Shown here piece after piece: positions 11,557-64,000 of a DNA stretch of 64,000 nucleotides; within the stretch, counting starts at the first letter, position 1, and each line of letters begins with the position of its first letter. The notes below the pieces were generated by a model, which did no database searches, was not told the DNA's origin, and saw only the letters and a program-made list of their open reading frames with translations. This stretch comes from Tomocerus qinae (lineage: Eukaryota; Arthropoda; Collembola; Entomobryomorpha; Tomoceridae). The position numbers and the translations under genes are program-made. The stretch spans positions 3,410,001 to 3,474,000 of the forward strand of contig CM034549.1 of NCBI GenBank assembly GCA_020055645.1, read 5' to 3'.

Positions 11557-14500
11557 ATGGTGAGCTTAATTTATTGTTTCAGCGTTTTAAGTACTCATCA
11601 ATACCTCTGCAGATTGATTTACATTTACATTTAGTACTGATGTTTACTAATATATTATTGTTTTTAATTGTAGCCACGTATTGACCCAAGTCGGTTATTG
11701 AAGTGTCTCACTCCTTTGTTAGATCCTAATTCTGGTGCAATAAAGTCGGACAAAGAAGTTGATAAAATATATGGGTAAGCAAAATACAAAAAATTTTAAT
11801 TAGTCGCAATTAGAGAATGATGAAATTATTAATTTAACAAAATATACTTGCTAATTTGTACATTTTTGCAATTTTCAGATTAATGTCCAAATTTTCAAAG
11901 AAACTTGTAAGCAAATGTACTTACATCAATATTCTTAAGGCTTCCAATTCCGGAGTGCTAGATTTGTAAGTTCTAAAGAAGTATATTTACTGTTTTATAG
12001 AATGATTTTAGTCTGGTTGGACTCACCAGTTTTAATATGATATAATTTAGGTTTATGCAGAGAGGGGGATGGGAAATGATTCATGGTTGGACGGTAGATG
12101 CAACTTCTAATAAAAATCACGCTCTTTTAAATGAAATTGCTTCATTGCTCATTCATACCCCAGCAAGTATTCAAAGGCTTAAAGAAAACGATCTTCCAAG
12201 ACTTATAAAGACGTTGTCGAAAGACTGCGAGAACGATGGTAATTACTTTACAAAATTTATATTTTCTTTCATTTATAGAGGTAGGATTAATTTGTACACG
12301 TAAACCTTTTAATTAACGAAATATTTTTTGTTTTTAATAGTTACAAGAGAACTAGCAAAGAAGGTTGTAGCCAAGTGGATTTCTATTGCAAAACAGGAGG
12401 ATACCCCGCCACCGATATCACCGAACAAGACTTTAAACAACGTCAATGCACCAGGGCCAACTAGTCACCCGCATTCTGTGTTGGTTTATAATCCTCAAGG
12501 TATGAAGTGCAACATGCCCAACGAGGGCGGTGGCAGTCACATAGATCAAAGTATGAACATTCAAGCAGCGTCAAGTGCGATGGAAACAGAAAACCAGCAA
12601 GAATTTGACAGCACTAACTTTGATATAGGAAATACGGACTTGAATGATCTTTCAGACTTTAATCCAGAAGATTTTAGCAAGACAATTGATCAACATTTGG
12701 GAGAACTGCAGTCTGAAAGCAATAATACAGAAATGGCGACATTCCCAACACCAAATGTGGCCAATAGCAATAATACTGTTAAAGTACAACCAGCTCCTAC
12801 TGTAATACAAACAGCCCCGAAAATTACAATCAGAACTGTTGGAGGCCAAACAACAGTGTTGAATCCATTAAATACATCCGGTAACGACGGCACTCCTTAC
12901 TGTCTCGTCACTAGAGACGGTAAACATTTCCTGATGAAGTTAAAATTGGCTGACCAACCCACTTATATACAACAACAACCTCAGCAGTCGGTAAAACTGG
13001 AAGATGTGACGAAACAAATTAAAGTGGAAGAGGCGCCTACACCGCTGCAAACCACGGAAGTCAAGCAACAGCAGCAATCGGTTATACAAACAACTCCAGT
13101 TCCTCAGGCCAGTCCCAACTCCAAAAATGCAGTAGTATCTTCAACAACTACTTCTACGTTACCTGTACCCGCTCCTGGGGAAAAGAAACGACGGCCTCGA
13201 AAAGACCCTTCAATTGCAACAGTTGGGAAAGTTGGAGCTGACGGAGTGAGAACGTATGGAAAAAAGTCTCCTGTACAAACTGGAAATAATGTCCCAATTA
13301 ACCAGGTACCGAAGCCAAATATGTCTCCTACCATTAAATCAGAACCAGAAGAGAAGAAACCTGTTGTTAAGAAAAAATCTTCCAGTGCCAGTGCGAAATC
13401 CGCCGCTGCGGCCGCAGCTGCTAAACAGGCTGAAGAAGAGGCAAAGTTGAGAGAAAAGATTAAAAAGGAAAAGCAAATGATGAAGCAAAGACAGAAAGAT
13501 GCTAAAAAGCAGCAACAAGAGGTTAAAGATCAAGAAACTTTGAAAAAATTGAATTTGACCAGTGGAAGCGCTACGCATCCTCCCACTCCCAATACCATGA
13601 AAATCCCGAAGATCCCCAAAAAGGCTTCAAGTTTCTCCGATGCTATTGGAATTCCAGGAGCTACAGAAGGAGGTGCTGCTCCAGATAAAATATCTCGCAA
13701 GAAAGAGAAGACTGAATCTTCTAGTAATGTGGAAAACAAGGATGTTCAGCCTGAAGCTGAGGCCGCCAAAAAACTGGAGATAGAACCGGGTAAGAAATCT
13801 GATGAAGACGAAGAAAGTAAAAAAGAAAAAGATTCCCCACCAGGATCGAAACAAAGAAGACATCGAGTCAAAGTATACAACTCCAAGTCAAGTAGAGCCG
13901 ATGATCTTTTAAAAGATATGACTGAAAATTATACTAAGGGTAAGACGGAAGTTGCCAAAGAGAAAGATAAAGAAAAAGTCGGTGAGCCTAAATCAATCAC
14001 AAGCACTTCTGGAGGCAAACCCATCAAACGTCCATCAGTAGAAGGTATCAGTAAACCAGGTGATTTGAAAAAAATAAAATTATCTGATGAAAAACTGGAA
14101 AAAGACAAAATTGAAAAAAAGAAGGAAGAGAAAGAAAAGGAAAAAGAAAAGCAGAGAATGAAAGAGAAACCTAAATCTGTTAATATGATTAAAGAAAGCA
14201 GTCTTTTTATGGATATGCTAAATGCTGAATCCGAATCACAGAAAACCTCAAAAAAGAAACGAAGGTTGTCTTCTGGTGGCAGCATAGATAAAGAAAAGGA
14301 TGTTAAAGTAAAAGATAAGAGTATTTTGAGTCCAACTAAGCAAGATGTCGTAAAACCAATGTTTAATTTCTACAGAGATACTTTAGCAGACAACGAAGAG
14401 AATGAAGATGTTGCAGTAGAGGACACATCAATGGAGATTGATGAAAAGAACGACAGTGTCGTAAGTTCGCCTACTAAAGGAGCGTTTACCCCGCAGGACG

Positions 14501-16500
14501 ACGAGGGTAGATTAAAAAGTGCCTTGTGCATTCACCGTGTCAAAAATAAGCCGAAGAAAACTGTTCGATGGAGGGAAGAGCAGGAACTCAAGGAATTCCA
14601 TTATTTTGAAATGGATGAAACCGAAAGGATAAATGTGACAAAACAGAACCAGTGCCGAGATTTCACCGCAATGAAGCAGCATGAAAAAGCAGAAGAAAAG
14701 TTGTTTCTTAGGCGGAAACTTATTGGCGACCCAATGGCGGAGAAAACTGAATGGAAAAAATTGATTCCCGTTTGGTTAAGTAGTGATACCCCAATCCCAG
14801 TAGTTACTAGTGAAGAGAGAGACGTCCAAGAAGCGAGGGAAAAAACTATTTTAGGATTGTTCCTTCCACCGGGAAGTATTCTTCCAGACAGTGCCTTAGA
14901 ACCAGATTTAATCGATAACGCAAGTGCTGAAAAGGGAGAACATAAGTAAGTATAGCCTCACAGAAGTTACAGTTACGTGTTAGGCCATTCATATTCTAAA
15001 ATTCTGTTTTCAAGATAACTAATGATGTTTTGTTTTTACAGGTCCATTCCAAGTGAAGATGTTAATGGTGTTACTAAAGTTTGTGACCACAGAACTCTTC
15101 CATGGCCAGCCCCTCAGGGTGTAGGATTCCAGCTTCCAGCTAATATAATGAATGTCAGCAAACAATTTGATCCAGAACCTGTGCCTGTAAATAACTTTAC
15201 CATGGCTCAAACTCTTCCAATGCAAATGCCTAACGTGTCTTTTCCCCCAGTTCAAGCTCCTCCTGCTGTCGATTTCAATAATCCATGGAACAATCCATTT
15301 TCAGTACCTGTACCTACATCGGTGCCTCCTCCGGTTGTTAATGAATGGAATGTAAGTTACTATACCAGTCAGTATAATTTAATACAAAATTCAGAGCGAT
15401 TTTTATCAAACTGATTTATGATTTTATTTTAATAGGTGGCCCATGACAATTTTGCTCCGTTTGGAAATCCTAATCTAAATATGCCTCCACCTTCTGCTAT
15501 GCCTTTTGGAATGAATGCAATGAATCCTTATGGCAACTTCGAAGGCCCACCGCCAATGGTACAAGAAGGTTTCAATAATTTCCATCCACCTGGACCTGGT
15601 CAGGGTTCTGGAGTTGGCGGCCAAAATTTTAGTAGCAATAATAATAACGGTCCTGCTCATAACCGTGAACAAAACTTCTCTCATCGTGGAGGTAGTAGCC
15701 ACTCGTCAATGAGAGGAAGAGGAGGTGGCAGTAGAGACTTTGATCGTGACCGAAATAAGGATTACCGAGGCGGAAGGGATGGAGGGAGAGATCGGGATCG
15801 AAATCATAGAGATCGTGATCACCGAGACGATTGGGAAAGCAGAGGACGGGAGCGCGATAGGGACCACAGAGATCGCGACCGGAATAGAGATAGGGACAGG
15901 GATCACCACGACCGGGATTATAGGGACCATGACAGGGATAGGTCTCGGGGAAAGGGTAATAAACTGCACTAAGTATACATGCATGCGATCTTAACCTTTG
16001 GAGATTGAAAGTAATATATGGTAATTTTGTTTACAGGAAAACGGGATGTGCTGTGTAGATTTTTCAAGAGAGGCTACTGCCATAACGGTGCTAATTGTGA
16101 ATTTTTACATACGGGTGGCCCACCTCAGAGTAATTCTCATTATTTCGGCAGCAAAGATCGGGGGAGTCATCATAGTCATAACAATATTGGCAGTGGTGGG
16201 AGAGACATGAACTCCGGATTTTCTCAGATGCCAACGCAGTCCAATGATTTCTCCAGAAGTTCAAAAGGAAGACCTGCGTCTCCCTCCCTTTTCGAAGTGG
16301 ATGACCCTAGCTCAATATCCAATAATATGGTCAGTTCCAATTTAAGTGCTACTTCCTTCGCTCAACAACCTCCAAGTGTTCCTGTCATAGTCGACGATGA
16401 GTCAACTCGGTTTTCAATGCCTCCTAGTTCACCTACAAACGAACTTTTTCCTCCCGGAACGGAGCCTACCAAGGTCATACCTGTGCACACCATCGACTGA
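11557..16500 (+). CDS. PPP1R10: PNUTS / PPP1R10-like PP1 regulatory subunit
   Basis: Nuclear scaffold that targets protein phosphatase 1 to chromatin and the RNA polymerase II termination machinery (family knowledge). Exons: 11557-11559, 11674-11774, 11879-11965, 12051-12238, 12341-14945, 15042-15351, 15436-15955, 16037-16500. They join in frame to 1425 codons and end in TGA. Residues about 60-145 form a TFIIS N-terminal (LW) domain. The PP1-docking RVxF-type motif KKTVRW is at about 865-870, followed by a block (FHYFEMDETERINV) nearly identical to vertebrate PNUTS. An Arg-Asp repeat at about 1190-1272 is followed by a CCCH zinc finger, C1278-x7-C1286-x5-C1292-x3-H1296. The linker is long and Lys/Glu-rich with a Gln-rich part, making the protein longer than the human one (about 940 residues). 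The start codon is an exon end: ATG is directly followed by GTGAGC, then MPRIDPSRLL resumes at 11674, matching the human start. Identity is very likely; the first exon is inferred. Confidence 0.93.
15700..15955 (+). repeat. Coding Arg-Asp (RD) repeat region in PNUTS
   Basis: The end of exon 7 encodes a run of RD, RDRD and HRD dipeptides after a Gly/Arg-rich stretch. The DNA is a matching degenerate GATCGNGACCG repeat, so long frames on the other strand and in other frames here are by-products. Vertebrate PNUTS has a Gly/His/Arg-rich repeat in the same place before the zinc finger. Confidence 0.85.
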
Positions 16501-35733: not shown

Positions 35734-38700
35734 ATGGCAAGTACTTTGCAAATGTACCAAAATGCCCTTAACCCACTTAACAATTGGTACTCTCTGCTGG
35801 TATTTGGACTCGTGGGTACCTTCTCAAATGTGATTTTCCTATTTCATAATTTGGATAACATGAGAGATCAATTCCAAGCCAGCTTCTACGACACGGACAA
35901 CACTTTCGACTTCATTGTCGGTAAGTTTACCCTTGACTCTTCAACGAGTTTATCATTCATAATAATGGGCAATAGCTTTCCTCTAACTTTAATTTGTGTG
36001 ATAAAATCATTCTAGCCTAACTAGTTGCTTTATAAATCAGTTGGCAAGTTGTAATACGAGTGCATAATAGGCATGTCTGCAGAAATTGTTTTTACTTTAA
36101 GTACATGTAGACATGTAACTTTATACATATTATTCAGTTCAGTATTATATAGAGAAAAGTTTACACAGAGAGGTACTTAGGTACTTCTATATGCAACGAT
36201 ACTTGCAGACACGTGCACACTTACTATAAACATAACATCTAATGTAAATGTATATTTATTAGCAAATCGTACATCCGCAAAAACTTGGCTATGCTAATAG
36301 ATTGGCTAGGATGGAATTGCAATATTAATGATGATCTTACATCTATTGAGACATATAATACACATACTTGATGCATATCGCAAATTGACATTTGAAGTTT
36401 ATACGATACTCTTATTCATCATTTCTTTTAAAATACGCATGGTAAAAAGATTTGCTCAGTGTTTTATCTTTCAAAGTAACAAATATGTGCATTTGCTTGA
36501 AAAGAATTTATTTAGCTAACTAAAGTACCAACCATACCATGCATAGGAAATAAACTATTACTGTGCATTTGTATCTGAGAATATCTTATATTCAAGATAC
36601 AATTACAAACATAAAATATATTACCTCTCATCAGTTCTCATGCAAATTAATTCAGTGTTTTAGTAGAATTAGAAAACCATTACAAAATTTCAGTTTCAAT
36701 GACCTCATCGCTACTTAATTATATGAACCATTTCTCAGAATTGATTAAAAGTGTTAGGTAGCAGAATATATTACAAGGGAAGCATCTCCAATCTTAAACA
36801 GTACAGGGCAAGGCCTTTTTCGCTTTCATAATTTTGAAGTGACAAAATGTATCCATAATTTGTTTTACCACTGGAGTAAATGGTGTTTTTATGCTAACTG
36901 CATGTGTAATGTCAATTTATTAACGACTTAAGGCACAAAATGGTTCTCGCTTGTTACTACCCCTTTATTTCAAACAACAATTCAGGCACGTTTAAAATCT
37001 CATGAATGCCCCATTTTAAATTTCTTATTGAGTTATTTCATGTCAAAATGCATGAAGGTAGTGTAACAAATGCAGACACCACCCTGTACATTACAATGAT
37101 GTTTTTGTTGGGAACAGAAAACAGAAGTATGAATGGTTTTAGAATTTGAAAAGGAAATCGTACCTATTCAAACAACCTGAGAACTTTGGATTTCTCAACT
37201 TTTTATTGTTCTTATGTCTCTTATTAGTTTTGTGCTTGGCATTGGCAGTCACATAAATACTTATTCCTTCCTTGACTGAGCTACAGACATATTTCTCCGA
37301 AAATACTAATTCTCTAACCAAGTTGCCAAATCTGTGCAATTAATCTGGTTTTGCTAAGAGAAGAGAAGGATAGTAAAGAAGTTTATGTCTGATTAGGGTT
37401 TTTATTTTTGACGTATTTCACTCTCTCTCTAAAGCAAGGTGGACATTGAACGTAATAATATCAAGAAAAAATTAAGATGAAACCATTATTTTAAAAATCC
37501 ATTTCTCCACTAGTAAGAATTTTGATAGGCACAATTACGTTTACAACTGTATATAAACACAATTCGATTTTACGTGTACCACCAATTATTTCGAATTGCA
37601 TGTATTTAATAAAATGTAATAATTATTACATTTTCAAGTTTGTTATTCAAATGTGTTTTTCTAGCACGCGCTTATTCAATTACATTACCAATGTACAATA
37701 CTGCACATTGCACATTTTGGATATCATTTAGTGTAGTACATATAGTACATGTGATGTATTCATATTATAGGTATTACATTGGTATTGCATATTTTATGAA
37801 TTTATATACACTTTATTTACTTTACTTTACTTTATTTTATGCATTTATATTTATATATATTTTTATTTATATATTTATTGCTGAGCAAAATTTATTCATT
37901 GATAATTCCGCTATGCACTTCAGACAGAGAAGTATATGAACAAAAATTTAGTAGAACAGTTAAAATAATAATTAATCGTAAGTATTTTGATAACTTATAT
38001 ATAGGGAGATTAATAAATACTTGAATGATATTTACAGTTGGAGGAGGAAGCGCTGGAGCAGTTGTTGCCTCAAGATTATCGGAAGATTATAAAGTTTTAC
38101 TTCTGGAAGCAGGTTAACTTAAAGAATACTAATATATTTGACACATTCTTGTGATACCATGTAATTGCTACTTTTCTGCATACGTGAAACATAAAATGAC
38201 GTGATTGTGTGATCGCTTTAATGACCAATTTCTTGTTCAGGTGGAGAGCCAAGTCCGTTGTCTGCTATCCCAGCCCTATCTCTACTGATATTAAATTATC
38301 CCCATATTGATTGGCGATTCTTCACAACTCCCCAGAAAAATGCATGTTTTGCTATGAACAAAAGACAATGTTATCATCCGCGAGGATTAGGTCTTGGAGG
38401 CAGCAGTAACAGCAACTTCATGATATACATGAGGGGCCATCCGCTGGATTTCGACACTTGGGCTAATATGACTGGAGATTCTCGGTGGTCATTTGACGAA
38501 GTAATCAGATTCTTCAAAAAATCAGAAGACTACAAAGGAGACTGGGACATTCGTTAGTTTACAATAATATTTATTTCTTGGTGAATTATTTTACTCGGGA
38601 AAAATGAATGCAGTTATGCACAAAATTAAAATTTTGGCATGATATATTATATGTCTATCTGTGTCTCAATGTACTAGCTCAATTTCACGGTCATGGAGGA

Positions 38701-40706
38701 AATCTGAAAGTTGCACAAGCCCCTTACGATGGGCTTTCTAAAGAGTTTGTAGCTGCTGGAGAGGAAATGGGCTATCAAAGAGGAGATCTGAATGCAAGAT
38801 ACAACAATAGTAATGATGCACCAAAAATGATTATGATTTTTATTTGAAAATGCATTTTTAAACAACTTAATAATAAATTCTATTTTTAGCATTTTCGCCT
38901 ATATATTACACGCAAGGAAACGGAAGAAGATATGGAACTATGAAAGCCTTTATAGAACCAGCAAGGACCCGGCCTAATCTTTCAATATACAAATTCTCGA
39001 GAGCACACAAGGTAAATAACTTCAATTTAGAATCCATAACACGTTTTTATAATCATGATTCCAATTCATTACAAAAATAACATGGCATATTTCTGTTTTA
39101 GATTCTGTTCAAAGGTCCTGAAAACCAAGCTTATGCTGTTGAATATGAGAGACATGGAACCAAAAGAGTAGCCTTCGCCAAAAAGGAAATTATTATCTCT
39201 GCTGGAGCGATTATGTCTCCTCATTTGCTTATGTTGTCAGGAGTTGGACCCAAAGACCATTTAGAATCTCACAATGTAATAAAAATGATGCGATACAATT
39301 ATTTGCGGCAATGCTCTTGAGTGTATTAAGTTCTATAATATTGTATGTATATTTCAGATTCCTGTAAAGAGAGATCTCCCTGTTGGTAAAAACCTGCAAG
39401 TAAATATGCTTTTTGGTTTTGATTCACCTTTGCTAAAAAAAATAATTCGAATTTGGGCTTATTAGAAAAACAGTAAAAATGAAAGTTGCAATTTCATTTC
39501 TTTTAATTACTCTTGTTTTTATAATCTGTCTCTTAGGACCATATTTCCGGATTCGTAGGACCATTTCTGATTGATGAGCCCAGATCCATGCTTTTCGACA
39601 GAGATATAAATGCAAAATCAATGATGGAATTTACGGAAAAGGGAACTGGTCCTGTTTCATCCACTGGAATCCAAGCATCGGCTTTCCTTGTTTCCTCCTT
39701 GGCGAAAGCAAGAGGAGAGTATGACTGGCCTGACATTCAATGGCTCCTTTTAGGCACTGGGGTTTACAGTAGACAAGCACGGGACATGGCTCACTCTTTC
39801 AACGTCCCCGAGTCAACTCTGAAAAAATGGTACGAGCATGTCCAGGGAAAAGATTCTTTCACCATTATCAACATGTTGAGTCGTCCCAAAGGTCGCGGAG
39901 AAATTACTTTAGCCTCGAGCAAACCAAACGATTATCCATTAGTTAACCCTAATTACTTGGCTGAAGAAGAGGATGTTAAATTAATGATAGAAGGTAATCT
40001 TGAAATTCAATTACTACCGTTTATTTTATCTGCTGTACTAAAAGTATCACTTTTATAACTGGTGGTAAATGCAACTTTCGCGTTTTAATAAAACATGAAA
40101 TCTTAGGAGCACATCGGGCAGTTCAACTCGTTGAGAATACCACAGTATTTCAAAGAATGAATGGCAGATTATCACCCACACCATTCCCTGGATGCGAACA
40201 TGTGCCATTCCGTAGTGATGCGTAAGTCATACTTAAACTACTGTTGAAGCCTTAGAAATTGTGCTAATAGGCGCTATATTTTCTTTACTAGTTACTGGGA
40301 GTGTTTTCATCGTCATTACACCCTAACCATTTACCATCTTTCCGGAACTTGTGCTATGGGAAAGAAAGATTCGAAGGAAGCAGTTGTAGACAGTGAACTA
40401 AGGGTTTTGGGAACAAGAGGACTTCGAGTAATAGACGCGTAAGTGAACTTTTATATACATGTGCATTATGTACGGTTAAATATTTAGATTTCAAATCTTT
40501 TTTCTTGTAATTTAGATCCGTGATGCCAATTGTAACTTCTGGTAACACCAATGCTCCAACTATTATGATAGGTAAAGCTTCAGGAATTATGTTTTTGTTA
40601 AATTCAGGTTTTGTAATGTTCAAATAATGTATATCAATGTTTTGCAGGCGAAATGGGCTCTAATTTCATTAAGTCAACCTGGTCTTCAAGATCAAATGAG
40701 GTCTAA
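35734..40706 (+). CDS. GMC oxidoreductase A (glucose dehydrogenase-like, membrane-anchored)
   Basis: FAD-dependent alcohol or sugar oxidoreductase of the GMC family; the substrate cannot be read from sequence. Exons: 35734-35920, 38038-38112, 38241-38552, 38678-38809, 38890-39011, 39102-39275, 39358-39399, 39537-39993, 40107-40221, 40292-40438, 40516-40571, 40648-40706, giving 625 codons and TAA. Residues 20-36 ([17 protein letters not shown]) are a likely signal anchor. The FAD loop VGGGSAG is at 63-69, GMC signature 1 ([13 protein letters not shown]) at 135-147 and signature 2 ([15 protein letters not shown]) at 311-325. The active-site pair is His554 in HLSGTCAMG and Asn598 in SGNTNAP. Intron 1 is 2117 bp, the longest in the gene. 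All key residues are present, so it looks functional. It is the first of four tandem paralogues on the same strand. Confidence 0.93.
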
Positions 40707-46484: not shown

Positions 46485-49400
46485 ATGGCACCGATGCCAC
46501 CGATGGACATAATTCGGCAGAGCTTTAACAGCTGGCATATGTGGTTTCCAACAATCATCTACGGCTTCCTCGGTGTCCTTTCCATGTACAACACTACTTG
46601 GGTCAATATGGACATGATGCAAGATAAATTTAGAGCTACCTTCACGGATACCAAAGATACTTTCGACTTTATTGTCGGTAAGTTCGTATTTTAAAATATT
46701 ATTACAAAATATGAATAAAAATTATTACTAAAATTCAGGAAGACAATTGTGGTTCGTTTATTGAAAACAATAATAGCTGATATGATATGTGTTAATTACG
46801 TGACTAGATTATATTATTATCATGAAGGACTATACGCATCTGTACATACATAAATCGTTGCACGGGGCGAGTGTCGCATACATGTTCTAAAAAGTCACAA
46901 TCGTAAAAAAGGAAGAAAGATAAATGGGTTAAGCATGAAAAACAAGTATAGGCACAAATATCGTATTCCTCTTACGTTTACTGAATCTGTCCACAAGTTG
47001 GCATGTTATTCGACTATTGTCATTTCGTTTCCTGTTGACTAATGGACAATCATACACTCTCTACTCGCTACCTTACTTAATATTAAATATTTTCTATTAC
47101 AAAAACGACAAAAAGACCAAGTTTAAATCCAGGTTGTTCAATAACATAATGCATACAGTAATAAGTTTCTTAGTTGTATTAGGTTTAGAATTATAATGAT
47201 CTCCAATTCATGAAGGAAGTAACGGGTATCATGTTAACCTATATATGTACAGATGAAGGATGAGTTAATGTCAACTCAGATTGCTAATTAGGTATCTGCA
47301 TACACCTTTTGGCATAATAATATTACATTTATTGATGTAAAACATGATAAGAAAATCTAATGTTATTTGTAAACACGGTTTCAATCAAAGGTTTTTGCAC
47401 ACCACTACTTACGCATAGCTCGAGTATGAAAATAATGAACTGAAGAATAGCGAAAACTGACAATAAACTATTACTTTTTTTGCAGTTGGAGCAGGAAGTG
47501 CTGGTTCGGTTGTAGCGAACAGACTTTCCAGGCATTACGATGTTCTACTCATTGAAGGTAAAAACGACTCAGTCCTTAATGTTATTAAGTTAGATTTTCA
47601 CAAAACCGAACATTGAAATATCGATTGTGATGCTCCTATGTCCTAGTTTGAGAAAAATATTTGTATTAGCTAAAAATGCTTCAAAGGTTCTTTTGCATTT
47701 TCATGTGAACAGCCGGAGGTGAACCAAACCCATGGACTTCAGTTCCTGCAATGTCGTTTATGATGCTAAACTATCCAGGAATGGACTGGATGTACAAAAC
47801 CGTTCCTCAGAAAACCAGTTGCGGAGCCCTGCCTAATAGAGTAATTGCTAATATGCGTTTTCTGAAATTTTTGAGTTTTTATATTTCAGTCTCATTCTAG
47901 TTTTCAATACTGGGAATAATAAAATAATCCAAAGCTTTACAAGGTTCATTCAGTGTGACATTTACTTCATGAGAGCTATGTAAGTAATATGTATACCTAT
48001 CTCTTTCAAATTCAAATGTTTTCTTGATGTGTATTTCAGCAATCTGGATGGTCTGGAGGAAAGGGATTAGGTAAATACGATGTACAATTGAATATATTAT
48101 GCACATTTTTATAGTTCTGCTAAACCCTTTGTTATTAAATCAAATAATCTGACCTTTTTTATATTTGGGGTTTAATTTCTCACAGGGGGAACATCCAACT
48201 TGAATTTCTTGATTAATCTTCGTGGTCATCCGCTTGATTATGACTACATCGCCAATTTAACAGGGGATTCTACGTGGAGTCAGTGTCAATCTATTTATTT
48301 GTTATGAACAACTTTTATTCTGAAGTTTGACGCGAGAATGAAACTTTAATCTTTTAAAATTCTAATTAGGTTATGACGGTGTAACTCCGTTTTTTAAAAG
48401 CGTTGAAAGCTACAGTGGCCCTTTTGATAATGGTAACTATATTATAATCTTAATAGAGCATTCCTCATTTTCAAGGCAGGTAAACAGAATCTGAGAATTA
48501 ATGCTTTTAATCAACATTGTCTACCAATATAGAACAATATCATGGACACAGTGGGGATATGCCAATTCAGCTTCCTCCTTATTTGGGGATGGGAGAAACG
48601 TTTCTGAAGGCTGGCAAGGAACTTGGCTATCCTATAACAGATTTAAATGCTCGATTCGATGAAGGTTATTAGAAATTCGATTTATCTTGGAACAAAGAAT
48701 TTTTAAATCCCATTAACACTCTATTCATTTAGTTTAATCAAGGTCATAGAAAATTTTACAAGTTTCAGTCATAATAATGTTGTAAATTTTCAAAGGATTC
48801 TCGTTCATTGTGTATCCAACTAAAAATGGAAGAAGGATGGGTTCTTTTCAATCATTCTTAGCTCCTATCCGTGATAGACCAAGGCTGACAATTTACAAAT
48901 GGGCCCAAGTTACCAAAGTTTGTAAAGTTAATTAATTTTCCAAAAATGTAGAACGGTAATTGGAGAACAAATGCTTTAACTTATGTGAAATGAATAGGTT
49001 TTGCTCAGAGGAAGCGACAACCAGGCTTATGGGGTCGAATACGAACGACATGGAATGCATAAAACTGCATTTGCTAAACGAGAAATTATTCTTTCTGGTA
49101 TGTATTATTGTATCCTGTAATACATTAATTACTTTACTTGAATGGAACAATGCCACAGTAGCCATTGACAAATACGGAGAGGGCTACGTCAATAATATAA
49201 ATACATTTGAAATCTTTTCAGGAGGTTCTATTGGCTCCCCAAAAATTCTCATGTTGTCGGGAATAGGTCCTAAAAAGCATTTAGAATCTGTTGGGGTACG
49301 TATAGCAATAATTCAATTCAATATTTTAATAGTTTCATTTATGTACGTTTATTATACCATCAAGTCATAATTAATTAATACTATGGACTTCTACATTTTA

Positions 49401-50944
49401 CAGGTAAAGCCGAAAATAGACCTGCCTGTTGGATTAAATTTACAAGGTGGAGACAATTTTTAATTATGTTCAAAATTAGGATTGGCAAATTGAAGTCTAA
49501 TGATGATAATATTATTGTTCTCATCTTTCATGTGACCCATGAAGACCATATCAGCACATATTTAGGCCCTTTCTTCGTAGACAAGCCGGTGAGTATGCTG
49601 CTGGATCGAGATCTCACTGCGAAAAGCTTTATGGAATTCACACAAAATGGTAAAGGAGAATTGACGTCTTCAGGTTGTTCTGCCACTGGCTTTGTGACAA
49701 CGTCTAAAGCTAAAGCTGCTGGAGAAGAAAAATGGCCAGATATTCAATTCATATTTTTAGGTTTGTCATTCATTTTGTTTCGAAGTGACAATAAACTTAT
49801 TTGCAATCATACATCATACTGAACATAAAAAATTGGAGAGAGATGTCTTTTTATTAGGAAACGGAGTTTACCAAAAAATGGATCAAGATTTTGCGCACGC
49901 TTTTCATGTTAGAGAAGATGTGATGAGAAATTATTTTGCTCATGCCAAGGGAAAGGATTCTTTCCAAATTATCGTCTCATTAGCACGTCCTAAGGCAAGA
50001 GGAGAAATGAAATTAAGTGGACCGAGACACACTGATGAATTTTTAATCGATCCGAAGTAAATTTTTATATTTTAGTCTTTAATATTTTTATTATTTTTAA
50101 AATAAATAAATAACTATATTAATTGAATAACAAATCAAGGTATTTGGACAATGAACAAGATATCCAGACTTTGATTGAAGGTAAGAAATTAATCACATTT
50201 TTAATGCAGTAAATCTATATACGATTAATTTGTTTGCTAACTTGTATTATGAATTTTAGGTGTAAAAATGGCAGTGAATCTGGCTGAGAATACGACAGCA
50301 TTCCAAAATATCGGCTCGCAGTTCACAAATGTAGTTTTTCCAGGTTGTGAAAATGTTCTCTTTAGATCTGATGCATACTGGGAATGCTTTATAAGGTAGG
50401 AATAAAAACATTGCATTTCCACCCCATTTGTAAAGTAGCTTTAAAAATATTATGTACACAGGCATTTGTGTAACCATCGAAAATCGTCCTAATCTAAAAT
50501 ATCCTAATATCAAAATCTTAAGATTTAGTATGCCAATTGTGGAGTAGTAACAGTATTGAAATAGCTATTTAATGGAAATTATAATTTTTTCAGACAATAT
50601 TCCCTGACTCTTCATCATATAACTGGTCCATGTTCAATGGGTCGACAAGATTCCAAAGATGCAGTTGTAGACAGTGAACTGAAAGTTTTAGGAGCAAAAG
50701 GACTTCGTGTGATAGATGCGTAAGCTGTTATACTTTCAGTGCAATAAATATAGAATAAATAAATAAATAATAGTTTAAACTATTATTTTTTTAAACTTTT
50801 AATTCTAGGTCTGTGTTGCCAAAAGTACCGATTAGTAATACAAATTCCCCATCTGTGATGGTGGGTGAAAAGGGTGCCTACATGATTCTGAAATCCTGGG
50901 AGGGTTCTGTGAATGGAATTACTACAAATGAAATTATCCGCTAG
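46485..50944 (+). CDS. GMC oxidoreductase B (membrane-anchored, divergent active-site motifs)
   Basis: Paralogue of gene A. Exons: 46485-46677, 47486-47557, 47713-47840, 48040-48070, 48186-48278, 48370-48432, 48533-48664, 48796-48917, 48998-49097, 49222-49295, 49404-49446, 49545-49760, 49858-50056, 50140-50180, 50260-50395, 50594-50719, 50809-50944, giving 634 codons and TAG. The hydrophobic anchor is at 21-35 (FPTIIYGFLGVLSMY). The FAD loop VGAGSAG is at 65-71, signature 1 (GKGLGGTSNLNF) is split by an intron, and signature 2 (GSIGSPKILMLSGIG) is at 313-327. His556 is kept, but its motif reads HITGPCSMG, with Pro for the usual Thr. The second site reads SNTNSP (Asn600), with Ser for the usual Gly. 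The C-terminus extends past the family end. The frame is intact, so this may be a paralogue with altered substrate. The donor after 48278 (GTCAGT) and the acceptor before 49545 (ACCCATGAAG) are weak but frame-required. Confidence 0.92.
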
Positions 50945-55324: not shown

Positions 55325-58300
55325 ATGCATCGACAAGTTCGACAAGCAGTGGAAGGCGCCGGAGGCCCTTTTCCAGGACTAGCCGGAGCAACTTTATTAG
55401 GACCTTTAGCTAATTGGTTCCAAATTTTCATGTTTGGTTTTCTCGGGGTCCTCGGCCCTTCTATTTTAATGTTTAGTAATATGGACGCTATGACGGATCA
55501 GATGAAAGCCAGCTTTTACGACACCGAAGACACTTTTGATTTCATTGTCGGTGAGTGCACTGTCAAAAAACGTGATGAAGATTGTATTGAGGCAGGCATG
55601 TAATCATTAAATAGTGTAAATAATAAGCATGTAAGGTAAGGTGCATACCATCATGCTGTTATGCAAGATTGCGTAGTTCATTTGCAAAAAAGAAGCTTAT
55701 TATTACAAATTTCGTAAGATTCTGGCTAAAGGGTAACATCAGATGTAGGCGTAAAAGTAGACAAAGAGACTACCAAAAGCAAAGCACGAATTCTTCAACG
55801 ACGAAACTACGCAATGCAGCCTTTCAGGTTGAAACTAAAGCTTCTCCAAGTTATATAGAGTTTTAGCCACAAATTATATGTGGAGATTGATTAGATGCAT
55901 TATTTGGCAAAGCTGAACCCATGCAGAAATTGTGTGGTCAAGTTTTTGCTGTTAGGATGGTAAATGATAAGTAAAATGCAATGCGTGCAATAACTACTTA
56001 CGATGTGTAATGTGTAATCACCTACGCATGTGATTTAGCTATGCATATTATTATTGTATCGTCTTAAGCAACCAGACGAGACCGAGGGAGTTGTCTTAAG
56101 TTAGCTAATTTTTATACTGAATTAAATCTTTCTTAGTTTGTAATTTTGTGATAAATTTTGCGCATAAAAGATGTCTATTTTTTGTTCAATTATGTACACA
56201 TGTTTGGACATTAACCTGTTCGCGACAACTTTATGATGATGTTATGATAATGTGACATGCAATGATGTTTTGCAGTCGGGAGCGGAAGGTAATTTAATGT
56301 TTTTTGTACAACCTTTAGTAGTAATAATTCGTACACTAAATGAGGCAACACGTAAAAATGTACTTATGAATACGTATTCTGCATTAATAGAGTAATTAAG
56401 CTATGTATGTACTTTTTTGCAGTTCTGGAGCAGTTGTAGCTCATCGGCTTTCCGAGGATTATCGCGTTTTATTGCTAGAAGGTTTGTTAACAGATCTATT
56501 AATTATAGCTATAATTGTTTGCTTGAGGTATCTATCAGTAATTAATTACTCATGATGAATAAATAAATAAATAAATAATGAAGCTGGAGGAGAACCATAC
56601 CCTGGAACTGCAATTCCAGCCACAGCTTTTCTCTTGCTAAATCGACCAGGACTGGATTGGAATTATCTCACAACACCACAGGAAAAAGCATGCTTTGCTA
56701 TGAAGAAAGGTCAATGCATTTGGCCCAGAGGAAAAGCACTAGGAGGTAAAACAACGAATTACAATTATGCATTTTCTTTTTATAACCGTTGAAAGACTCT
56801 GCGTGGTTTATGAAAATTCTGGAGATTTATGCATATGTTACGCAATTAGGTAGCAGCTTGTTAAATTTTATGGCTTTTCACCGAGGACATCCGTACGATT
56901 ACGACAATTGGGCGAATATAACTGGAGATCCTGTTTGGAAATTCGACAATGTACTAAATTACTTCAAGAAGTCGGAAAATTTTAATTATGATGGAGTTTG
57001 GGATGACAAGATGCGGAAATTTCATGCAAAGAATGGTCCCTTGAATATTGCTGTTCCAGCCTACACGGGAATGGGAGGTAAATAGTGGCCAGGTTATCAA
57101 TGTAACTTCATGTTTCAAGATATTATCAAAAATCTAACACTGAAAATTGTGAATATTTTAGACTATTTTGTCAAAGCTGGAAGAGAAATTGGATATCCTA
57201 CTATTGACTATAATTCAGAATTCCAAGAAGGTAATAAATCTACGTTTTAAAAAACTTTGGTTTTTGATTACTTGGTACAATGTAATAGCAAAGTGATTTA
57301 TTTTAGGCTTTGGACTTTTCCAGTACAATCAAAAGAGAGGAAGACGCATGGACACTTACCATGCATTTTTGGAACCTATTCGAAATAGACCAAGTTTGGC
57401 TATTTACAAATTCGCTCATGTGGACAGAGTAAAATTTTGTGCTGAACTGAACATTGGTTTTTGCATTTATCTGAACAAATTAACATTACTTGTGTGATAT
57501 TTTAGGTTTTGCTAAGGAATAATAATGGAAATGTTGAAGCATACGGAGTAGAGTACACTAGACATGGTCAAAAGAAGAAGGCATTTTCAAAATATGAAGT
57601 TGTACTCTCAGCTGGGGCTTTAAACTCCCCAAAAATTCTCATGTTGTCAGGAATAGGTCCCAAAAAACACCTCCAATCGCACGGGGTAAGAATTATTTTC
57701 ATTTTAGTGCTAATATAATAGCAGTGATATGCAATGTTCTTTTAAAAACTGTGATCAATCACCTTAAATTTATCTACTTTTAGTACTGATACAATAATAT
57801 ATTTAAACTTCAAATGATTTTCAGATCAACGTTATAAAGGATCTGCCAGTTGGCCAGAATTTACAGGTACAATTATTAATTTTTAGTACTTTAGCATGCA
57901 ATTTTTTAAAAGTATTATATAATGTATTGTATTAGAAGCCATAAACATTTTCCGTTTCTTTTGTTACAGGATCATGTAATGAAGCTTTCATATTGGCATC
58001 ACTTTTCGTCGTTTGCAAAATATTACTTAGATTTACATGGATGATTTGTAATAACTAATCGTAATCTTTTCAAAAGGTTTCAACTTTCCTTGGTCCGTTC
58101 GTCATTAACAAAACAGTGTCATTTAATATGGACCGAGACATAAATCCGGAAGCTTTGACTAATTTCGCCTTAGATGGTAAAGGACCAATGACAACGACAG
58201 GTGTCCAAGCCACAGCTTTTCTTTCTAATGCACGAACAAAGCGAGAAGGGTTTGGCAGTTGGCCTAATTACCAATGGTAAGTAGCAATGATCGACAATAA

Positions 58301-59398
58301 ATGCATTGATTAATCTATTTTTGTCTATTGTTTCGGTGTAATTAACAAAATAATTACATCAATGAGATTAAATCTTGAGATTAATTTATTTCCTAGGGTT
58401 ATGTTGGGAACTTCCGTGTATAATCGCTATGGATCAGATAGTGAATTTGCGTTCAACATAAAGAACGGTCTTATGACTAAATACTACCAAACTGCCAAGG
58501 GAGTTGACTCTTTCCAGATAATTAGCATTTTGAGTCGACCTGAGGGAAGAGGCGAAGTCCTCTTAAAATCTGCCAATCCTGCTGATGGTTACACACAAAC
58601 TTTCATAAACAATTATGCATTATTATCGAATTGTCTTCATGCATTTTCATGTTCCTTATTGTAGCTCCTCTGATGGATCCTAAATATTATCACAACAAGG
58701 AAGATATCAAAAATATGGTCGAGAGTAAGAAGTCGATTTCATCCGCATATTCATTTAAACCATTCCCGATTTATCTTTTATTTATCTCTAAGTGTCATCT
58801 TTATTTTTAAAATAGGTATGAAACGAACTGTTGACCTTGTGGAGAAGACTGAAACTTTCCGTAAACTCGGAGGCCACCTTCTTCCGGTTCCTTTTCCAGG
58901 ATGCACAGTCTTTAAGTTCCGATCTAATGACTACTACGAATGTTTTGCAAGGTTTGTCCAGTCCTGTAAAGAATATTATGCAAAATCTAAAAAATGTAAA
59001 ACTAAACTTGTGTTTATGATTTCAGATCTATTTCTCTCACTATGTACCATCCTGTTGGCACCTGTCCAATGGTAAGTAATACCAAAACCTCATTAATTAA
59101 AGCATGAAAGGATAATTTATAAATATTTTGCTTAATTTACCAGGGAAAAGCTACTTCTAATAATGCCGTTTTGGATTCTCGTCTAAGAGTGATTGGAGTT
59201 CGTAATCTGCGAGTTGCAGATGCGTCTATAATGCCTAATATCGTAAGTGGTCATTCCTCTTACTTAACTCATCTGTATTCTAAAATTGTAATTAATATTT
59301 TGTATTGTTTTATATAGGTAAGCGGTAACACCAATGCACCTTGTATCATGATAGGAGAATTAGCTAGTGACTTAATTAAAAGAGACTGGATTAAATAG
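55325..59398 (+). CDS. GMC oxidoreductase C (membrane-anchored, with two microexons)
   Basis: Paralogue of genes A and B. Exons: 55325-55550, 56276-56288, 56423-56481, 56584-56745, 56850-57077, 57162-57230, 57307-57428, 57506-57685, 57825-57866, 57970-57975, 58077-58276, 58397-58587, 58665-58724, 58816-58951, 59026-59071, 59144-59242, 59318-59398, giving 639 codons and TAG. The anchor lies within 37-54 (WFQIFMFGFLGVLGP); a Gly-rich cytosolic or luminal head precedes it. The FAD loop VGSGSSG (76-82) comes mostly from a 13-nt exon. Signature 1 (RGKALGGSSLLN) is at 148-159 and signature 2 (GALNSPKILMLSGIG) at 330-344. Asp368-His369 come from a 6-nt exon. The active-site pair is His573 in HPVGTCPM and Asn617 in SGNTNAP. 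All canonical residues are present. The intron before 56584 ends in an AAAT repeat instead of a pyrimidine tract. Confidence 0.92.
56276..56288 (+). other. 13-nt microexon of GMC gene C (FAD-binding loop)
   Basis: TCGGGAGCGGAAG is flanked by TTTTGCAG and GTAATT. It joins exon 1 (phase 1) and exon 3 (phase 2) to restore VVGSGSSGAVVAHRL. Without it the frame shifts and the GxGxxG loop is lost. Paralogues A, B and D encode the loop within a larger exon. Confidence 0.85.
57970..57975 (+). other. 6-nt microexon of GMC gene C (Asp-His)
   Basis: GATCAT is flanked by TTGTTACAG and GTAATG. It lies between phase-0 introns of 103 and 101 bp and supplies the Asp-His of DHVSTFLGPF. A and B have [10 protein letters not shown] and DHISTYLGPF at the same place. 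Skipping keeps the frame but removes two conserved residues. Confidence 0.78.
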
Positions 59399-62300
59399 TA
59401 TGTAGACACAGAGTACAGATTAGAAAGTATCTCTACTAAAGACATGTACAGATAGATATTGTTTATTTACAAATGATATTAAATACTTATGTATAGCCAA
59501 AAATATTAATTAAGATGCCTCCATAGATAACGATCCTCAATCTCAGTGCAGAAACAGATATTACTTGTCTTGCAGGGAAGAATTAATTTTTCGCTATTTT
59601 AGCCAAAGTCATTTTTTCTTTGAATGACATTACTACAGAGATAAGTGTAACTTACATAAGTAATAGTAACAGAGATGATTACGAAATGCAGAGTACAGAT
59701 GAGATTTGTTAATCGTGAAAGTACTGATATATTGTATACAGCTATTGCCTACCTATACCTACTAAGTTGACCTAAACGTATCTAGTTTTACAATGGGCGA
59801 AATAAGGTGTATATTGTATGAAAAGGTAGTTTATAGTTATTTATTGCGAATCCTAGTATAAGTGTATAGATGTCAATGAATCAAAGCCAATAATATTCTT
59901 ACGTAAGGTTAATGGGTGCCTTGTCTATTTGTCATGAAGTAGTACTCTCACTACAGCCATTATGATTTACAGGTTTTCAAAGTTTTTAATTTTCAAAGTA
60001 GAGTAATTGGACAAAAGAATATTTGCGTGTGATGAAGGCCTCTCACTCTAATGTCACTGTCACTTATCTATTTAGAAGGAATTTTTTAAATAAAACTAGA
60101 AATTGAACCTATCTGCATCTGAGTACCTTTACTGCCATTTCATTAGATTGTATGTAGCTTAGCTACATATTCAGGTACTATTAATGTGATTCGAAATCAA
60201 AAGCTGAAAAACCCATACACAGATGTCACAATCCGATGCCCTTGCACTTGCACTGCCATGAACTACATAAAACTTGTTATCATTTGCATGACACATCGGT
60301 TGCATAACGCTTTCTTAACAAATTACCACTAAGTAGCCCAGATTAGGGTAAATAATTGGTTTCTTCGCGTGTTGTATGTAACAGAGTAACAGGATCACTT
60401 TCAAATAAGCATTTGCTTCAGAGAATCACCATCATCTATTGGATTGGGACAATATTTTAAGCAAACAGTCCAATGTAGTGTTATATATTCTTACTACATA
60501 TTATCATTATTTTATTTATACTTAATTTACTTACTTGTTTCTTGTGAATTCAATTCAATTCGATTTTAATATCTAAATCCACGTCGTGATTGCGTCATCA
60601 TGAACTGATGCCATCCCAATCACTAAACTCATGGTAAATCCCAATGAGTGTATTGCTTTTGCGTAAATTCTATCTGTTATTCATTTAAATCTGGTTTGTA
60701 GGCACTACTATTGACAATTACTCCTAGTATTTGATGTTATAAATATGTTTATCCTATATGTGAAAAATGTTTTAGTAGTTCACACTGTTAATTTTTATTG
60801 GACTCACTCCGGCCACATTTCCAGCCCTATCACATAGTGATCTGAAGAAAAACAAGTTTGCCGAAGGTGATGGTTATAGGGTTGGAGTTTCATCAGAATG
60901 CATCATACTTAAATATCTAAGTTTTCCTCTGGAGCACTGCGTCACTATTTCACCATGCTATGCCCGTGTGCTTTTAAACAAGTATCCGTGAGAATTTCCA
61001 GAACAGTCTGTCATGTAACTATAATTACCTTGAAGAAATAGAGCATTTATTCCAACGTTTAGTAGTACAAAAATGGAACATTTTTACATCCATACAATCA
61101 AAGCTGTATCGAGTGGGACTTTCGATGTCAGCCATCCCCGTCGACAAATCCAAAAAGACAATTTTCTCGAATGCTGAAGAAATTTTCGCCTCGTGCAAAT
61201 ATGTCAATTTTAGATCATTATGTTGACATAAAGAGACATTTATACTTGACAACTTGACATTATCATCACACCTCAAAACCGAGTTCGAAATATGGTAATA
61301 AATACTGCTTTGAGTATTGTAGATATTTATTTACACTGCCCGTCAGTAGATATTCACACTGACAAGGTACAAATTATTTGCAAGAAGGAAATGCAATAAC
61401 AAATCCAAGTATTAGTGAAGTAACATCTACTCATTAATTCTGCAGCCAGATCAAATCAATGCAAAAGTTACACAATAACAATAGCATTTTACCTTGTAAT
61501 AATGATTCAGATATGGGATATGGCATTACATTTTCTATTTTTTTCTGGAGATATATGAGATTAGAACAGAAATCTAAGCATAGTATTAGTAATGTAATGG
61601 TCCAACAAAATTTATGCATAAAAGACACCTCACCTTGGCGAATCTCTGTTCTCATGAAATTTATTCAGTGATCCCTATTTGGAAAAAATCTATATCATTG
61701 CATAATGCAGTGCAAATACTGCATTATGTTAATCTTAAGCTTGTGATTAAGAGTCTACAATATTGACACTATACTATGTTGACATTTCTAAGACTGCTCT
61801 AGAATTGATAAATGAAGAGTTTTCTTGTGTCTGCAAAGAATTAGAAATTAATCCTTTAAATTTCAGATTTTACTTAGTACAATTAGTAACACCTTAAAGG
61901 TGTTCTGGGTAAAATTCCCACCTCAAGTTAAATAAGTAGTATATAACACCGTGGTAATAGTACCAATGTAGACAGGAAAAGGAAATGATATTATAATAGT
62001 GCAGTGAATATCATTTATATGTGTAGCTAAGAAAGCAGAAAAAATGCTTACTCGTTCTCCAGAGACCTGCTACGTAACAGCAAACAGATAGAGTTCACAT
62101 ACAAACAGGTACATAATTAGTTTCGCTGCCATTCCTTTAGCAGTGCGTCCACTTAAAATTTCCAGTGAGTACAGTGAGAAGGAGTGATCCAGATTAGCTG
62201 GCAGTTTGTGAACAGAAAGGCTTAGTCAAGGATTTTAGCTTTTCGTTTCACTCCATTGATAAAAATGCTCTAGTGATTTTAAACATTGGTTTCAAATTTC

Positions 62301-62598: not shown

Positions 62599-63929
62599 AT
62601 GGCTGCCCAACTGGGATATTTTCAGTATATATTCTCGCTTATTCTCAACTTTATGTTCATAATGGTGGGAGTAGGAGTTATTGTGTTCAATTCCTTGGAA
62701 TTAGTGGGAGATCGAGTCAAATCCTCCTTTTTTGACCATGAGGACACATTTGATTTTATTGTTGGTAAGAATTACATACTTATGCATATTATTATTTAAC
62801 TATACATGCGCTGTAACGTAATGTGCTTCTGAACAGTTTACATTCATCTATCCGGATATAATTGACTAATTCAAAAATGAAAATCCGAAACAGTTTAATT
62901 GCCACCATTGCAAATAATACATTCCGTTTCCCAAAAGGAAGCAAAAACGAGCAGATTTGGAGGATCAGTCCTGTTGTCAATTAAAAATTTGTATTGTGTT
63001 AGCATCATGATTATTTACTTCCCGTGTGACTACATTAGCAAGGCTTATATCGGTGGAAAGATCGTGTCATGCATTATTAAAATTTGGTATTTTCAACGGA
63101 CAGAAAATTGTTGAATTTTCTAGTCTTAAAATCTACATTATAACCACAGTCTGAGTCAAAGGAATTTTACCAACCTTTTATCTATCTATATAATATGTCT
63201 GGTAGGGAGAGCCTAAACGCGCAAATGCTAGATGTCTTCAACTTTTCAAGCACATTGGATTACTATGAAAATGATTCAGATTTATATATGTATCAAAAGC
63301 GTTTCATATCATTTGTACTGTAATTACAATTATATCTAATCTAAAAGTCAAACAACTACGTATACCAATAATATTATGGATTATACCAAAAATACCTAGG
63401 CTAAATACCTATAGACTGCAATTTTGAATGAATAGGGGCTAGGGCTAGTAGCTATACATTTTTATAATTTTTATGAATATTGATACTCAATAGTTAGATA
63501 GAATGCAGATGGCTATTTCACTACTAAAGCTAATCATTAATCTTTATTCATCCTTATATGCTTATTTTATTAGCATGCATTTTTACTTGCAGTGGGAGGA
63601 GGAAGTGCGGGTGCAGTTGTCGCATCACGATTGTCAGAAAATTATAAAACATTGCTGCTGGAAGCCGGTGGGTCACCAAATCCCATATCATATATTCCAA
63701 TTACAGCTTTTTTGATGCTCAATCGTCCTGCAATAGACTGGCAAATGCTAACAGTGCCTCAAAAAAATTCTTGTTTAGCAATGAACCAACAGGTAGTAGC
63801 AAATAAATGTCAACTTGAATAGTGGAATTACTGAGTGAAAAATGAAAACGCCTAAAATTATCATAATAATATGATCCATTGTCAATTTTATTTTGCAGAG
63901 AAGTATATGGAGTAGCGGAAAAGGTTTAG
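62599..63929 (+). CDS. GMC oxidoreductase D, 5' part only (runs off the window)
   Basis: Fourth paralogue. Visible exons: 62599-62764, 63593-63792, 63899-63929, followed by a GTAAG donor; the rest lies beyond the right edge. The N-terminus has a long hydrophobic anchor at about 10-31 (FSLILNFMFIMVGVGVIVF). It is followed by the array-specific linker (FDHEDTFDFIVVG) and the FAD loop VGGGSAG. Exon 3 ends in SSGKGLG, the start of GMC signature 1. The intron that splits LEAG in A, B and C is absent here, so exon 2 is correspondingly larger. Catalytic residues cannot be judged. Confidence 0.88.
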
Positions 63930-64000
63930 GTAAGCTAGGAAAATTAATATACTCCGAATTTAAAGTACTATAACATAATAAAATCAGATTAATGTAATTA
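63930..64000 (+). other. Start of intron 3 of GMC gene D
   Basis: GTAAGC follows a phase-1 exon end, the same position and phase as intron 4 of gene B. The acceptor is outside the window. Confidence 0.8.

Follow-up and report, generated by a model that had tools for sequence, protein, structure and literature searches.

Five glucose-methanol-choline (GMC) oxidoreductase genes, A to E, lie on one strand in an array that runs from position 38037 of the window, the whole 64,000-nt stretch of Tomocerus qinae DNA analysed here, past its end at 64000 to locus L035 (Table 1). The GMC family of this genome is very large for an arthropod, and at least 157 exon matches to the GMC_oxred_C domain were found genome-wide. 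Gene C has an intact frame from its assumed start ATG to the stop codon, position 59399 being one base past that stop. Its protein scores above the curated cut-off in both Pfam domains of the GMC oxidoreductases, with 162.6 bits for GMC_oxred_N (cut-off 23) and 126.2 bits for GMC_oxred_C (cut-off 24.6), and it matched 66 distinct solved-structure sequences at E up to 0.001. The best explanation of this sequence is that C is a working GMC oxidoreductase gene with predicted enzymatic activity.

Table 1. Coordinates, in window positions, of the GMC genes and of the exons and introns of gene C discussed in the text.
Feature	Positions	Strand	Description
Paralogue A	38037..40682	+	Conserved part; intron 39400-39536 at position 0 (NLQ/DH); end approximate, first exon not located
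Paralogue B	47486..50900	+	Conserved part; intron 49447-49544 at +1 (CAAG/ACCAT, phase 1); ends approximate, first exon not located
Gene C	55325..59399	+	17 exons, 639 aa; GMC oxidoreductase (PF00732, PF05199)
Exon 2 of gene C	56276..56288	+	13 nt (TCGGGAGCGGAAG); second microexon, in the VGSGSSG glycine motif
Exon 9 of gene C	57825..57866	+	42 nt; ends ...VGQNLQ
Intron 9 of gene C	57867..57969	+	103 bp; position 0 (NLQ/DH)
Exon 10 of gene C	57970..57975	+	Microexon GATCAT = Asp368-His369; phase 0/0
Intron 10 of gene C	57976..58076	+	101 bp; position +6 (DH/VS)
Exon 11 of gene C	58077..58276	+	200 nt; begins VSTFLGPF
Paralogue D	62602..64000	+	Gene start as aligned, continues past the window; no intron near DH

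Between exons 9 and 11 of gene C, the codons for Asp and His stand alone as a separate exon. Exon 9 meets intron 9 as ...AATTTACAG/gtacaa, the intron starting at 57867; exon 10 is bordered as ttgttacag/GATCAT/gtaatg; and intron 10 gives way to exon 11 as ttcaaaag/GTTTCA, the exon starting at 58077. In the gene model GATCAT is thus an internal coding exon of 6 nt, within the 30 nt allowed for a microexon, and is flanked by AG and GT. The initial annotation had proposed this microexon, and its letters, coordinates, flanks and intron lengths (103 and 101 bp) all match our own. It had also placed Asp-His before the GPF block in paralogues A and B, correctly so; B reads DHISTYLGPF. Anatomy, frame, conservation and splice-site scores are shown here, as is the distribution of introns in the gene models, the introns of paralogues being taken from a self-written spliced aligner and not from annotation.

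Several lines of evidence argue that GATCAT is more than a chance match. When A, B, D and E each served as protein query at five intron penalties, GATCAT was picked in 20 of 20 spliced alignments; masking its letters, tried at a single penalty, lowered the score by about 21 units for all four queries. After the 210-nt stretch that holds the exon had been dinucleotide-shuffled 20,000 times, AG-GAYCAY-GT appeared in only 5 of the shuffled versions, and a stricter pattern that requires YAG and GTR in 1 of them. Across the 64-kb window, both strands counted, AG-GAYCAY-GT occurs once, at the microexon itself, and the 21-mer around GATCAT has a single occurrence in the genome. Retention of intron 9 brings in-frame TAG and TAA codons and retention of intron 10 an in-frame TGA, so Asp-His cannot derive from a read-through exon. 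On this sequence evidence GATCAT is well supported as a real coding exon; most likely it is a constitutive one.

The two residues themselves are strongly conserved. Asp-His was present in 50 of 50 aligned GMC paralogues of the genome, the query itself containing Asp-His; L004, L021, L025 and L029, in which this stretch gave no reliable alignment, were excluded. The five solved-structure homologues printed at this motif read NLQEH, NLNDH, NLQDH, NLQDQ and NLQDQ, that is, Asp in four of five (Glu in the fifth) and His in three of five, where two of the five are the same photodecarboxylase; Asp is therefore nearly constant and His less so. Skipping of exon 10 would preserve the frame and remove both residues. 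That His369 may correspond to the active-site histidine of choline oxidase found no support in one literature search, and no use is made of this idea here.

We then compared intron positions across the family, counted from the start of the Asp codon on a common alignment of 50 genes, several of whose rows are partial. The counts cover fetched genes only; loci that repeat an already included gene and introns longer than 2,000 bp were dropped, and leaving out the near-copies L042, L045, L012, L064 and L053 gives 45 genes. Introns are found at position 0 in A and C, at +1 in B and L075, at +6 in C, L009, L049, L056 and L070 (all in the same phase), at +7 in L068, and at +10 and +13 in six genes each. 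These six positions fall within 14 nt around Asp-His, and at least one of them is occupied in 21 of the 45 non-duplicate genes, a figure inflated by nine regions that were fetched since their match broke off near Asp-His, and hence not a family frequency. On the common alignment, the intervals -41 to -1 and +14 to +71 received no intron. When the 42 distinct positions were placed randomly, a 14-nt window was equally dense in 138 of 20,000 placements, a comparison made post hoc against a uniform null. Gene C is the only one of the 45 that carries two of the six positions, and each of its flanking introns has a positional counterpart, that at 0 in A and that at +6 in four other genes.

Where homologous genes have introns at two positions separated by less than 32 nt, these positions form what is known as a near intron pair (Lehmann et al. 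2010, PMC2891723). All six positions around Asp-His lie within that distance, although the comparison here is among paralogues and that paper used orthologues. According to the same paper, the members of such a pair are very unlikely to have coexisted in a single gene. In contrast, the gene model of C has both 0 and +6, only 6 nt apart, and gene E presents a milder case at 21 nt. The latter gene (L034 and L035, C4:3.500-3.503 Mb) has its two introns, with a 21-nt exon between them, near the C-terminal FRSDDYWECF stretch; the first is found alone in A and the second alone in B and C. Close introns are thus found together in more than one member of the family; this lends support to the process and makes C its extreme and not its sole case. 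Six positions in 14 nt, with one member carrying two of them, offer a within-genome test of sliding against gain followed by loss.

To place these introns in a phylogenetic context, two trees were used, both without L068 and L069 (fewer than 100 residues). The first is a maximum-likelihood tree of 48 rows; the second, of 41 rows, additionally excludes L016 and L028, which form long branches, as well as the five near-copies. On the 48-row tree 17 changes account for the intron labels, compared with 19.3 on average after shuffling; 4 of 200 shuffles gave a value as low, so the labels are mildly clustered on the tree. The sisters E and L056 (support 100/99) differ in position, with introns at +10 and +6, respectively. 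Five changes are required for the +6 intron on the 41-row tree, and a single clade of its five carriers was rejected (AU 3.3e-6); the +6 intron was therefore gained more than once or lost often. Most likely, the microexon exists because introns of this family repeatedly landed at one spot and two of them did so here six bases apart: within a 14-nt stretch of repeated intron gain or shift, their arrival would have cut out GATCAT. More tentatively, the 14 nt may be a hotspot of independent gain, with C as the "very unlikely" intermediate, so that apparent sliding could proceed through a second gain that yields a microexon, followed by loss of the first intron.

A somewhat doubtful alternative, which concerns origin only and is compatible with inclusion of the exon, is that the microexon is ancestral, both introns having been present in an ancestor from which A lost +6, L049 lost 0, and D and its relatives lost both. 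C indeed groups with an intron-less set of D and others (support 96/88 on the 41-row tree, 98/92 on the 48-row tree), and the next to join this group is L049 with its +6 intron (93/97 and 90/69, respectively). Nor was a pairing of C with L049 (AU 0.114) or with A (AU 0.057) rejected. However, C lies nearer to the D group than to L049 on both trees, the introns at +1, +7, +10 and +13 cannot stem from losses in a two-intron ancestor, and the five changes of the +6 intron and the rejected clade of its carriers also count against this history.

That an intron slid or was copied, so that C would now carry it twice with GATCAT enclosed by the two copies, is in our view an unlikely origin. For Drosophila, PMC2891723 infers that sliding produced 9 of 31 near intron pairs, and the introns of A and B, at 0 and +1, are just one base apart. 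Against copying, introns 9 and 10 are dissimilar (222 and 231 of 300 shuffles were as good in two runs), as are the introns and their flanking exons (274 and 90 of 300), a dissimilarity to be read with the limit that old copies could have lost their likeness. Tandem duplication or intron copying was rejected after 18 comparisons (16 between introns and 2 with flanking exons), none of which stood out; the best of the 18, intron 9 against the +6 intron of L049, was equalled in 11 of 300 shuffles and was not taken as a signal. A repeat or mobile-element origin was likewise set aside, the 210-nt stretch having matched only itself in a genome-wide search that passes over simple repeats and frequent words. 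The introns of C showed no resemblance to their positional counterparts in paralogues in the shuffle-tested comparisons; together with the single genomic match, this means that intron homology cannot be shown.

How the exon may be spliced was assessed against 265 family introns, a set without introns shorter than 60 or longer than 1,600 bp and without those beside exons of less than 20 nt in genes other than C. The intron 9 donor, CAG/gtacaa, ranks at the 45th percentile and the acceptor of the microexon, ttttgttacag, at the 94th, whereas the donor of the microexon, CAT/gtaatg, is at the 8th and the intron 10 acceptor, tttcaaaag, at the 18th. With a score of 9.9 the microexon acceptor exceeds the other eight of nine AG sites listed for this stretch; the runner-up, at 57895, scores 8.0. 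The microexon donor (3.4) is outscored by GTs at 57912 (4.3) and 58077 (3.7). Exons of six bases are hard to bind at both ends simultaneously, as has been argued for plants (PMC8831610), so intron 9 would most likely leave first and intron 10 second. The strong acceptor at 57969 would pair with the exon-9 donor, removal of intron 9 would join GATCAT to exon 9 as a lengthened exon of 48 nt, and this exon would then use the weak donor at 57976 for removal of intron 10. As the weak site is the donor, the predicted failure is retention of intron 10, a by-product with an in-frame stop, rather than skipping. GATCAT would in this way be present in essentially all productive transcripts, supplying the Asp-His of the VGxNLxDH motif, and constitutive inclusion is the use that the sequence favours. 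We hold with high confidence the joint explanation of a real exon, included in practically all productive transcripts through ordered splicing and bounded by two introns six bases apart, of which we infer the inclusion, the splicing order and the origin.

The initial annotation had suggested that an exon of six nucleotides, a multiple of three, could be optionally skipped. Its premise stands, as the frame would survive, but the suggestion fits poorly with Asp-His in all 50 paralogues, with a best-scoring acceptor and with a weak site that is the donor. We consider it improbable that GATCAT is a regulated cassette exon, skipped in some tissues to give an NLQ-VSTF isoform of altered or dead activity. 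Its phase of 0/0 and its weak donor would suit such a role, and alternative splicing affects 68.9% of 411 Drosophila microexons that lie between two exons (PMC8042270); however, conservation of both residues and an acceptor that is encountered before 58077 point the other way. It is very improbable indeed that the exon is never used, with 57866 joined to 58077 and the residues lost in protein C, or with the gene a decaying copy: the donor at the 8th percentile would agree with this, but exact in-frame Asp-His codons between AG and GT arise in just 5 of 20,000 shuffles and gene C is otherwise intact.

Exons of six nucleotides are not in themselves exceptional, and the description of this length as near the lower limit for known exons was overstated: exons of 3 and 5 nt (PMC7392893) and, in plants, of 1 nt (PMC8831610) have been published. 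Direct parallels exist, as ME18 of Drosophila UGP (PMC8042270) and the 6-bp exons mentioned for Drosophila invected and chicken cardiac troponin T (PMC7392893) are, like that of gene C, internal exons of exactly six nucleotides. ME18 shows a difference between the sexes and was detected by both RNA-seq and RT-PCR (PMC8042270), whereas the exon of C is known from genomic evidence that favours constitutive use, and lies in a core motif of an enzyme. The 1-nt exon of plant APC11 resembles it in being tiny and needed for a conserved protein, and in APC11 homologues without introns the letter lies within a larger exon, as in our comparison of C with its paralogues; yet the APC11 exon is described as kept across most land plants (PMC8831610), while that of C is found in 1 of the 45 paralogues examined. 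Six-nucleotide exons are thus established, and what is less ordinary here is the setting, a coexisting near intron pair in one gene. We found no literature on microexons in Collembola, on microexons in the glucose-methanol-choline family, or on intron gain in GMC oxidoreductases of insects. Genome annotation often misses exons this tiny, and the two strongly conserved residues could thus be lacking from protein C as annotated.

Small exons occur at other sites in the family. Exon 2 of gene C is made by an intron inside VGSGSSG that comes right after a V/VG intron; the V/VG intron is also in D, and the site of the downstream intron is unbroken in A, B and D. Four other genes, fetched since their match began late, have introns in or beside the glycine motif at other positions. 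In two of these, L078 and L079 (the genes of L069 and L067), introns in the glycine motif yield exons of 25 and 26 nt, respectively. The aligner also placed small exons in L058 (19 nt) and L071 (29 nt). A second 6-nt exon, GGTATT, called in L022 with L074 (C1:104.01 Mb, +208/+214), was discarded as a probable artefact, given its poor splice sites and poor local alignment. Counted from the Asp codon, further clusters of nearby, differing introns among paralogues span +206 to +226 nt and +397 to +416 nt, which suggests that intron shifting or repeated gain is not confined to Asp-His. Elsewhere in the window, an open frame of 878 aa at 12313-14949 has no Pfam match at E up to 0.001, and a frame at 16015-16500 matches a CCCH zinc finger.
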